64,000 bases of DNA from Allofustis seminis DSM 15817. Its GTDB lineage: Bacteria; Bacillota; Bacilli; Lactobacillales; Carnobacteriaceae_A. The stretch spans positions 1-64,000 of the forward strand of contig NZ_KB894084.1 of NCBI RefSeq assembly GCF_000374325.1, in the 5' to 3' direction. The translations under genes were made by a program, and so were the position numbers. This document shows, piece after piece, positions 8,175-52,335 of the stretch (position 1 is the stretch's first letter; each line of letters opens with the position of its first letter). The notes below the pieces were generated by a model. That model was given only the letters and a program-made list of their open reading frames with translations. It searched no databases and had not been told where the DNA came from.

Positions 8175-8209
8175 AAAAGTCCTTGACATGATGGTCAAGG
8201 ACTTTTTTT
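8175..8209 (+). terminator. Terminator of the cysS-mrnC-rlmB operon
   Basis: A 13-bp perfect stem (AAAAGTCCTTGAC/GTCAAGGACTTTT) with loop ATGATG, ending in a T7 run, 28 bases after rlmB. Confidence 0.93.
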
Positions 8210-47861: not shown

Positions 47862-49949
47862 GTGGCAAAAAGACAATTTACTCTTGAAAAAACACGTAAT
47901 ATTGGTATTATGGCGCACATTGATGCCGGAAAAACTACCACCACTGAACGTATTCTTTTCTATGCAGGTCGTACGCACAAAATTGGGGAAACTCATGACG
48001 GTGCAGCCGTAATGGACTGGATGGAAGAAGAAAAAGAACGTGGTATTACGATTACCTCTGCAGCGACTACTGCTCAGTGGAGAGAACATCGAGTAAACAT
48101 TATTGATACACCTGGACACGTGGACTTTACCGTAGAGGTTGAACGTTCACTTCGCGTTCTTGACGGAGCTGTTACCGTATTGGATGCACAGTCTGGGGTA
48201 GAACCACAAACTGAAACTGTGTGGCGCCAAGCGACCACTTATAATGTCCCACGTATTGTGTTCGTTAACAAAATGGACAAAATCGGAGCGGACTTCTTAA
48301 ATGCTACAAAAACAATTACCGATCGTTTACAAGCAGATGCATGCCCAATTCAATTACCAATTGGTGCAGAAAATGATTTTGAAGGAATTATTGACTTAGT
48401 AGATATGGATGCTGTGATCTATAACGATGATCTCGGAAAAGATATCTCTCATATCGAAATTCCAGAAGAATATCGTGCATTGGCTGAAGAATGGCGTGAA
48501 AACCTTCTTGAAAAACTTTCAGAATATGATGAAGACTTCATGATGAAATATCTTGAAGGAGAAGAAATTACAACCGATGAAATTAAAGCCGCTATCCGTA
48601 AAGCAACATTAACGGTTGAATTCTTCCCAGTACTTTGCGGATCCGCCTTCAAAAACCGCGGAGTCCAACCAGTACTAGATGCTGTTATTGATTATCTTCC
48701 ATCTCCACTGGATGTTCCTGCAATTGAAGGACATATTCCAGGAGAAGAAGACAAAATCGAAACACGCCCATCATCAGATGATGAACCATTTGCAGCATTA
48801 GCCTTTAAAGTGATGACAGATCCGTTCGTTGGTCGTCTAACATTCTTCCGCGTCTATTCTGGAACATTGGAAGCAGGAAGTTATGTATTGAATGCCTCAT
48901 CAGACACTCGCGAACGTGTTGGACGTATCTTGCAAATGCATGCTAACAACCGTAGCGAAATTGAAGAAGTATTCTCTGGTGATATCGCTGCTGCTGTTGG
49001 ACTTAAGAATACATCGACAGGGGATACACTATGTGCAGAAGATGCACCAATTATTCTCGAATCAATGGAATTCCCTGAGCCGGTAATTCAAGTTGCGATC
49101 GAACCTAAAACGAAAGCGGACCAAGATAAAATGGGTCTTGCCCTTCAAAAATTGGCAGAAGAAGATCCAACTTTCCGTGCTGAAACAGACCAAGAAACTG
49201 GCGAAACATTAATCTCTGGAATGGGTGAGCTTCACTTAGACGTTATCGTTGAGCGTTTACGCCGCGAATTCAAAGTGGAAGCGAACGTTGGAGCTCCTCA
49301 AGTTTCTTATCGTGAAACATTTACGAAAACAGTTGAAGCTGAAGGTAAATTCGTTCGTCAGTCTGGTGGTAAAGGTCAATATGGACATGTATGGATCGAA
49401 TTCTCACCGAACGAAGAAGGCGCAGGATTTGAATTTGAAGATGCAATCGTCGGTGGGGTCGTACCACGTGAATACATTCCATCAGTTGAAGATGGACTTA
49501 AAGCAGCAATGGAAAATGGTGTCTTAGCTGGTTTTCCACTTGTTGACGTTAAAGCCAAACTTTATGATGGTAGTTACCACGATGTTGACTCGAGTGAGAC
49601 AGCCTTTAAAGTGGCAGCAAGTCTTGCGCTTCGTGAGGCAGCTAAACGTGCAGGTGCCGTTATTCTTGAACCAATCATGGAAGTAGAGATTACAGCGCCT
49701 GAAGAATATCTTGGCGATTTGATGGGTCATATCTCAGCACGTCGCGGAAGCATCGAAGGTAGCGAACAACGTAAAAATGTTACAGTCGTTCGTGGACAAG
49801 TGCCACTATCTGAAATGTTCGGCTATGCGACAACATTACGTTCAGCTACACAAGGTCGTGGAACATTCGTAATGCAATTCTCACATTATGCACAAGTTCC
49901 ACAATCTATTGCAGATGAAATTATTGAAAGTCATGGTAGACAACAATAA
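47862..49949 (+). CDS. fusA: Elongation factor G
   Basis: GTPase that translocates tRNA and mRNA on the ribosome. The G motifs are [21 protein letters not shown] and NKMDK; five EF-G domains fill 695 aa, with [14 protein letters not shown] in domain V. The start is GTG (M-A-K-R-Q-F-T-L-E), about ten bases after AAAGAGGTG. tuf follows after a structured spacer. Confidence 0.98.
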
Positions 49950-49958
49950 TGCAGCATT

Positions 49959-50026
49959 CTGATTGAAGTTGAGTAAAAGGCGTTATCCGTTGCTTTTACT
50001 CCCTTCAATCAGTATAATGATTGAAG
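49959..50026 (+). promoter_or_regulatory. fusA-tuf spacer: overlapping alternative hairpins and an embedded promoter
   Basis: Hairpin A (49959-50012): CTGATTGAAG/CTTCAATCAG plus GAGTAAAAG/CTTTTACTC, 19 bp in all. Hairpin B (50003-50026): CTTCAATCA/TGATTGAAG, 9 bp, loop GTATAA. Both use the same central CTTCAATCA, so they exclude each other. TTGCTT (49990-49995), 17 bases and TATAAT (50013-50018) form a promoter candidate whose -10 lies in the loop of B. Confidence 0.6.
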
Positions 50027-50084
50027 ATAAGGGGATGCCCCTTTAAACCAAATAATCTAAAATCCTAAGGAGGAACTATTTAAA

Positions 50085-51272
50085 ATGGGTAAAGAAAAAT
50101 TTGATCGTACAAAACCACATATGAACATTGGTACCATTGGTCACGTTGACCACGGTAAAACCACTTTAACTGCAGCTATTACAACAGTGTTAGCAGAAAA
50201 AGGTCTTTCAGAGAAAAAAGACTATGCATCTATTGATGGTGCACCAGAAGAAAAAGAACGTGGAATTACTATTAACACTTCTCACGTAGAATATGAAACA
50301 GAAAAACGTCACTATGCACACATTGATGCACCTGGACACGCTGACTACGTTAAAAACATGATTACGGGTGCAGCACAAATGGACGGTGCAATCCTTGTTG
50401 TTTCTGCAGCTGATGGTCCTATGCCACAAACTCGTGAACATATCCTACTATCTCGTCAAGTTGGTGTTCCATACATCGTAGTATTCTTGAACAAACTTGA
50501 TATGGTAGATGATGAAGAGCTTGTAGAATTAGTTGAAATGGAAGTTCGTGATCTTCTAAATGAATATGACTTCCCTGGAGATGACACACCAGTTATCGCA
50601 GGTTCCGCATTGAAAGCTATCGAAGATCCTCATAGTAAATGGGGCGACAAAGTGATGGAACTTATGGATGCTGTTGATGAATATATCCCAGAACCAGAAC
50701 GTGACGCTAACAAACCATTCTTAATGCCTGTTGAAGACGTGTTCTCAATTTCTGGACGTGGTACTGTAGCAACCGGTCGTGTAGAACAAGGTCGTGTTGA
50801 AGTAGGTAATGAAGTAGAAATCGTTGGTTTACGCGATACCGCTAAAACAACTGTTACCGGAATCGAAATGTTCCGTAAACTTCTTGACTACGCAGAAGCT
50901 GGAGATAACATTGGAGCACTTCTACGTGGTGTAGGTCGTGATGAAGTAGAACGTGGACAAGTTTTAGCAACACCAGGTTCTATCACACCTCATACAACCT
51001 TTGAAGGTGAAGTATATGTCTTATCAAAAGAAGAAGGCGGACGTCATACCCCATTCTTCTCAAATTATCGCCCACAATTCTACTTCCGTACAACGGACGT
51101 TACAGGTGTTATCACATTACCAGAAGGAACCGAAATGGTTATGCCTGGTGACAACACAAACATGCATGTAGAATTGATTGCACCAATCGCTGTTGAAGAA
51201 GGAACACGTTTCACAATTCGTGAAGGTGGCCGTACAGTTGGTGCTGGTGTTGTAACAAAAATTGATAAATAA
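50085..51272 (+). CDS. tuf: Elongation factor Tu
   Basis: GTPase that brings aminoacyl-tRNA to the ribosome. The G motifs are [18 protein letters not shown] and NKLDMVD; domain II and III are complete with a C-terminal [15 protein letters not shown]. The length of 395 aa is standard. Start after AAGGAGGA. Codon use is highly biased, as expected. The spacer upstream offers both read-through from fusA and a separate promoter. Confidence 0.99.
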
Positions 51273-52171: not shown

Positions 52172-52335
52172 TGTGCCTTGAGAAAGGGATAGGGATTAGT
52201 GCGCCCTTTTTTAAGGTAAAACAGCGATGAAGTGAGAGGTTGCGACACACTAGGGTGCGTTGGCACCGGCTAGCCATGAGAGTGTGCCGGAAATTTTCGC
52301 GGAGCTAGTTTATTATTTAAATAAGCGAGGAGGGT
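52172..52335 (+). promoter_or_regulatory. S10-operon ribosomal leader (putative)
   Basis: A GC-rich structured leader in an otherwise AT-rich spacer. GATGAAGTGAGAGGTTGCGA, a GGCAC...GTGCC hairpin enclosing GGCTAGCC, and CGCGGAGCTAGTTT before the ribosome site resemble, from memory, the leader ahead of rpsJ in Bacillus and Staphylococcus that gives feedback control by a ribosomal protein. There is no T tract, so control would be at translation or by an unseen termination site. Confidence 0.55.

Follow-up and report, generated by a model that had tools for sequence, protein, structure and literature searches.

A stem-loop sharing its DNA with the predicted tuf promoter between fusA and tuf in Allofustis seminis and related bacteria

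Few bacterial proteins are as abundant as EF-Tu, and cells need more of it than of EF-G, although the genes for both share one operon. In Bacillus stearothermophilus, an internal tuf promoter (tufp) was reportedly described in the fus-tuf intergenic region by Krasny et al. in 2000. RNA structures are also found between the genes of an operon. In Clostridium cellulolyticum, intergenic stem-loops without a U-run lie at the 3′ termini of operon transcripts that have been processed, and have been linked to transcript abundance; in the accessible part of that study, 28 of the 33 stem-loops that mark sites of intergenic processing have no U-run, and stem stability tracks the transcript ratio (PMC4423207). 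Here, we describe a fusA-tuf junction where a stem and a predicted tuf promoter occupy the same DNA. It was studied in a stretch of 64,000 nucleotides from Allofustis seminis DSM 15817 (the window) and in the corresponding regions of its relatives.

The fusA-tuf junction and its stem

The window belongs to a genome of 1.44 Mb in 14 contigs and contains rpoC, rpsL, rpsG, fusA, tuf, a small acetyltransferase-like gene and the S10 operon, all named by reading their translations. On the plus strand, the fusA open reading frame (EF-G; 47862..49949, stop codon TAA at 49947-49949), whose translation served as the query for FusA relatives, is followed by the intergenic region (49950-50084) and by the tuf open reading frame (EF-Tu; 50085..51272, with its ATG at 50085). 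Between both genes and on their strand lies the predicted tuf promoter TTGCTT-N17-TATAAT (49990-50018), with its -35 box at 49990-49995 and its -10 box at 50013-50018. This promoter is absent from the output of a consensus promoter scan of the window, because its -35 box has three of the six consensus letters. The call is a prediction, supported by its position, the perfect -10 box and promoters at the equivalent position in relatives. From the promoter spacing, transcription of tuf is expected to start near 50024-50026, and a leader hairpin, AAGGGG-ATG-CCCCTT (50029..50043, plus strand), stands at the expected 5′ end of the tuf mRNA; no Rfam family covers this hairpin.

The two-part stem called H1 (10 + 9 bp) spans positions 49959-50012 of the plus strand. 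Its outer helix, of 10 bp, pairs CTGATTGAAG (49959..49968) with CTTCAATCAG (50003..50012), the latter being the remainder of the 17-nt promoter spacer and abutting the -10 box. The inner helix, of 9 bp, pairs GAGTAAAAG (49971..49979) with CTTTTACTC (49993..50001), which begins within the -35 box and continues into the spacer. A second hairpin on the same strand, H2 (50003-50026), has as its 5′ arm a segment that doubles as part of the outer H1 arm (CTTCAATCA, 50003-50011); it pairs over 9 bp with TGATTGAAG (50018..50026) around the loop GTATAA. A first-pass annotation had described this 19-bp two-part stem, the 9-bp hairpin with its loop and the promoter, and all of them are present where it placed them.

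Taken alone, H1 has a folding energy of -23.5 kcal/mol. The fold of the whole intergenic RNA reaches -37.3 kcal/mol (z -3.9), which none of 200 shuffles equals, and the segment from the fusA stop to just beyond the -10 box has a folding z of -5.45. Thus, H1 is stronger than expected by chance. Among the 99 promoter-like sites that our own scorer found in the window, just one has a stronger local fold than the tuf site; it lies at 8175 on the minus strand, falls on an inverted repeat with a T-run behind it and was read as an ordinary terminator. By contrast with such a site, the sequence directly 3′ of H1 is that of the -10 box, UAUAAU, a U-run is absent, and the tuf intergenic region is not among the terminator-like sites from a scan of the window. 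An Rfam search of the window returned only 5S rRNA and one tRNA, with no match above the gathering score in the fusA-tuf region. Among 71-nt segments of the window, the one with the strongest fold is located elsewhere, before rpsJ, in the leader of the S10 operon (52231-52301, -30.0 kcal/mol), and likewise has no Rfam match.

Parts of the 3′ arm occur at other places in the genome. The 18-nt TTTACTCCCTTCAATCAG (49995-50012 of the window) recurs exactly at G000:C7:24378-24395 (L112), upstream of a flavoprotein gene that we take, from a motif, to be glutathione-reductase-like, and a 15-nt piece of it is found on the minus strand at G000:C3:57491-57506 (L115). A 16-mer from the region of the H1 3′ arm occurs at three places with zero or one mismatch, at none with two mismatches and at 18 with three. 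A repeat element was considered and rejected, as the fusA-tuf region is single-copy in the genome and only the 18-nt piece of the 3′ arm and one shorter piece recur.

Pairing of the promoter spacer in relatives

Of the 27 genomes (nine genera, including Alkalibacterium) of the window's family, f1, 25 provided a fusA-tuf region, G013 and G016 being without this junction. In f5, which includes Aerococcus, Trichococcus and Bavariicoccus, 64 of the 76 genomes were used; nine g36 genomes, the fragments G295 and G308, and G322, which had no match, were left out. Further regions were taken from f2 (10, including Isobaculum), f3 (14), f7 (6), f8 (10) and f6 (1). Second tuf copies (L122 and L129) and genomes without an adjacent fusA (L126, L128, L130 and L131) were excluded; L122 (G024:C32), from one Alkalibacterium-group (g3) genome, is a tuf copy located apart from fusA.

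For the segment between the fusA stop and the -10 box, folding z averages -3.6 in f1 (below -2 at 21 of 25 loci) and -3.3 in f5 (21 of 31). The same segment has a mean z of -0.2 in f2 (0 of 10) and -0.8 in f7 (1 of 6), while the values for f3 (-1.2; 4 of 14) and f8 (-2.3; 4 of 10) come from loci with doubtful promoter calls. The leader of tuf frequently bears a 5′-terminal hairpin of its own, variable in sequence, with a mean z of -2.9 in f1, -4.6 in f2 and -3.0 in f7 and a weak -1.0 in f5.

To separate pairing from folding in general, a chimera test was used, where each upstream arm was folded with the native promoter and, for comparison, with 102-114 promoters from other species, including the doubtful f3 and f8 calls. 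A locus was counted as positive if 95% or more of the chimeras paired less well than the native arms. The test comprised 24 of the 25 f1 loci (the upstream sequence of L025 was too short by the cut-off) and 61 of the 64 f5 loci (three near-identical segments were omitted). In total, 44 of 85 loci were positive, 40 of the 61 from f5 and 4 of the 24 from f1, covering 20 of 29 genera, while about 4 of 85 would be expected by chance. At one positive f1 locus, L024, we think that the promoter call is wrong; without it, the count is 43 of 85 loci and 19 of 29 genera. In the window, the native pairing surpasses 111 of 111 chimeras (z -7.5), and in its family mates L006 and L011 it surpasses 113 of 113 each (z -7.4 and -8.6). 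No positive locus was found among 10 from f2 and 3 from f7. The results for f3 and f8 (2 of 9 and 6 of 8) were set aside because the promoter positions that the scorer assigned in these families fall within or beyond the leader hairpin. As a control, the pairing of upstream with downstream sequence, tested likewise, was positive at 4 of 88 loci. Among these are L027 and L121, both from f1, whose repeats around the promoter were judged to be genuine; perfect 10-11 bp inverted repeats (CCATTTGGGG/CCCCAAATGG and TGCACATTTAT/ATAAATGTGCA) lie there on both sides of the whole tuf promoter.

Pairing between the spacer and an upstream arm recurs in f5 and in one further genus of f1, and the H1 sequence itself is not conserved among relatives. 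At the 44 positive loci, which were selected for pairing, every spacer position from -15 to -1, counted back from the -10 box, takes part in a pair in 32-41 loci, and 4-6 types of pair occur at each. The conservation in relatives that had been proposed as a check on the first-pass annotation is therefore seen for H1 through the chimera test, in that the pairing is kept while its letters change, and the embedding of the tuf promoter in a hairpin proves to be a maintained arrangement. Tests within narrower groups gave less. Compensatory changes were found in 2 of 20 pairs among three g28 sequences (a result reached by 53 of 500 shuffles) and in 1 of 12 pairs among five sequences of the Aerococcus group (98 of 500 shuffles equal this), neither being significant alone. 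In a weak test, where spacer pairs were counted against shuffled upstream sequence, p was below 0.05 at 2 of 25 f1 and 3 of 31 f5 loci; for the window, it was 0.005. MAFFT left the 5′ arms unaligned, and the alignment (A2) was not used for counts. Since many relatives retain such a hairpin with altered letters, it probably acts as a genuine RNA signal and contributes to setting the amount of each factor.

The position of the stem is less uniform than its presence. Topology was classified by our own cut-offs at 89 loci. In f1, the stem overlaps the promoter at 4 loci, lies upstream at 9 and flanks it at 2, with 10 having none; in f5, it overlaps at 40, lies upstream at 3 and pairs the promoter with downstream sequence at 6 (4 of these from genus g58), with 15 having none. 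The 25 of 89 loci without a stem class by these cut-offs include L162 and L222, which are near copies of positive loci. The recurrent feature is a stem located between the two genes; its 3′ arm is in most cases the spacer, and it usually ends at or just within the -10 box, before the expected tuf start. At 12 of 89 loci, the whole of the strong repeat is located upstream of the promoter, so that what counts may be the presence of an intergenic stem and not an exact geometry. In L006 and L011, the stem overlaps the promoter despite an intergenic region of 184 nt; thus, lack of room is not the whole reason for the overlap. In g58 of f5 (L148, L163, L206 and L212), a long stem is formed between the tuf promoter, as its 5′ arm, and the tuf leader, as its 3′ arm.

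Possible roles of the stem

Whether selection acts on DNA or on RNA can be approached through the mismatches of the repeats. With a strand-neutral finder applied to 89 loci (25 from f1 and 64 from f5), inverted-repeat scores of at least 20, 24 and 28 were reached at 58, 32 and 16 loci, compared with 289, 59 and 13 of 3560 mononucleotide shuffles. Among the 64 repeats with a score of 16 or more, there are 59 G-T, 15 A-C and 103 other mismatches, while shuffled repeats contain 769 G-T and 507 A-C (p of about 0.0005 for the difference, with relatedness ignored). By genus, 15 lean towards G-T and none towards A-C, with 7 ties. As G-T can pair only in the sense-strand RNA of fusA-tuf, this excess suggests that the sense read-through RNA is selected, pointing to RNA rather than to a DNA operator, as judged from sequence comparison. 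An operator or cruciform acting at the DNA level would fit an inverted repeat that spans -35 to -10, as well as the promoter-flanking repeats of L027 and L121, and the first-pass annotation had likened the repeat over the -10 box to an operator. This is contradicted by the turnover of sequence, arm length and loop length between genera, which share no half-site, and by the mismatch asymmetry, and it is very improbable. In particular, the operator of a dimeric repressor was rejected, as conserved half-sites at a fixed spacing are missing and the asymmetry opposes it. A mirror promoter on the opposite strand was also considered; no good one was seen by eye in a few loci. More generally, promoter-covering palindromes need not be operators, and the balance between G-T and A-C mismatches can distinguish the two.

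Other readings place the signal in RNA but give it a different task. The first-pass annotation had proposed a switch between two exclusive pairings. Since the inner H1 helix can coexist with H2, any competition is confined to the outer H1 helix and H2, whose populations in the computed fold of a 221-nt read-through RNA (49900-50120) are about 0.84 and 0.16. H2 alone has a folding energy of -9.8 kcal/mol, and a search for perfect inverted repeats of 9 bp around loops of 3-8 gives 16 hits in the 64 kb, grouped into 8 sites that include H2. The promoter-downstream pairing of the window is better than chimeras (p 0.011). Nevertheless, it is significant at 1 of 25 f1 loci, the window itself, in a comparison that runs across genera, as the window alone represents its genus in the f1 set. 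Some pairing of this sort occurs at 6 of 64 f5 loci, mostly in g58 (4 of the 6), where it substitutes for the upstream stem rather than competing with it. Furthermore, tuf RNA born at the promoter should lack both 5′ arms. The two alternative pairings are thus not both kept, and a two-state switch has very little probability. That the pairing arose by chance or as a functionless by-product of local duplication is just as hard to credit: sequence of the 3′ arm is found elsewhere in the genome, and the upstream arm could stem from an inverted duplication of the promoter, yet recurrence with other letters in 20 of 29 genera, against chimera controls, disfavors this for the class, although it could hold for the window alone.

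A partial terminator or a hairpin-assisted pause, which would reduce read-through into tuf and clear its promoter, is improbable to a lesser degree. Strong stems adjoin AT-rich DNA, T-rich stretches lie 3′ of the inner stem in L145 and L204, and the genome has a rho gene. However, the 8 nt past the stem hold on average 2.77 T over 64 loci compared with a background of 2.69, and the distance from stem to tuf start is not constant. As there is no U-run on average, the stem is not a typical terminator, and an intrinsic terminator or attenuator was rejected. Exceptions, with 5-6 T in those 8 nt, are L145, L204, L169, L222 and L024. Somewhat more credible, but still unlikely, is an RNA insulator, where the stem would bar upstream read-through RNA from pairing with the tuf leader or ribosome-binding site, so that both tuf mRNAs are translated alike. 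This would agree with stems that mostly end at or inside the -10 box, short of the expected tuf start, and with the second hairpin at the start of the leader; against it, the stem is far upstream of the promoter at several loci, and in g58 the leader itself is the pairing partner of the promoter.

The reading that we prefer, with middling confidence, is that H1 is an intercistronic stem-loop that defines or protects the 3′ end of the rpsL-rpsG-fusA mRNA, with tuf transcribed from a separate promoter. It is favored because H1 is an RNA structure without a U-run, located between operon genes of unequal expression, in a genome that has genes for RNase Y and RNase III. The stem would form in read-through transcripts from rpsL-rpsG-fusA, and the DNA of its 3′ arm, which is the promoter spacer and part of the -35 box, would carry a promoter code as DNA and a stem code as RNA. 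Cleavage in the AU-rich region of the -10 box and early leader, or trimming by an exonuclease, might then leave the stem to mark and protect the 3′ end of the rpsL-rpsG-fusA message. The bulk of tuf mRNA would come from the embedded promoter and carry its own leader hairpin, and the amounts of EF-G and EF-Tu mRNA would be uncoupled. Hence, of the switch or RNase processing point suggested in the first-pass annotation, an RNA-level role such as processing or 3′-end formation appears to stand, and the switch does not. More tentatively, the element may be doubly coded in many genera of the two related families: the tuf promoter would be kept complementary to a nearby arm, so that its sequence is folded into a stem in the read-through mRNA, with promoter and RNA structure co-evolving in the spacer and the stem setting the ratio of EF-G to EF-Tu mRNA. 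The 17-nt promoter spacer is commonly regarded as free to vary; if the stem is functional, RNA pairing constrains it, and these bacteria possess an RNA-level divider within their str operon.

Comparison with described systems

The tufp of B. stearothermophilus is said to be likewise a promoter between fusA and tuf, allowing more EF-Tu than EF-G. In our own reading of Bacillaceae regions, a promoter-like TTGATT..TATAAC comes directly past the fusA stop and is followed by a hairpin, with no upstream stem in the parts of the regions that were viewed; in the window, by contrast, the promoter is itself an arm of the stem. A promoter-overlapping stem before tuf was not recognised in the literature searched, which left most subscription journals outside, and its novelty is unproven.

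The stem-loops of C. cellulolyticum are similar in lying within operons, in mostly lacking a U-run and in being tied to 3′ ends and unequal expression. They differ in that processing is only inferred for the stem described here, which also serves as the downstream gene's promoter; promoter overlap is not mentioned in the available sections of that study (PMC4423207). Attenuators in rpsL leaders, as far as the consulted portion of their description extends, are likewise structured, belong to the str operon and vary in sequence by lineage, but they are based on terminators and precede rpsL or fusA, not tuf (PMC2965389). In Escherichia coli, extra promoters likewise uncouple tufA from its operon, although they are located inside fus, and an intercistronic stem goes unmentioned in the excerpt at hand (PMC10931766). 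Taken together, the internal tuf promoter is already known, and the stem that shares its DNA is the variant.
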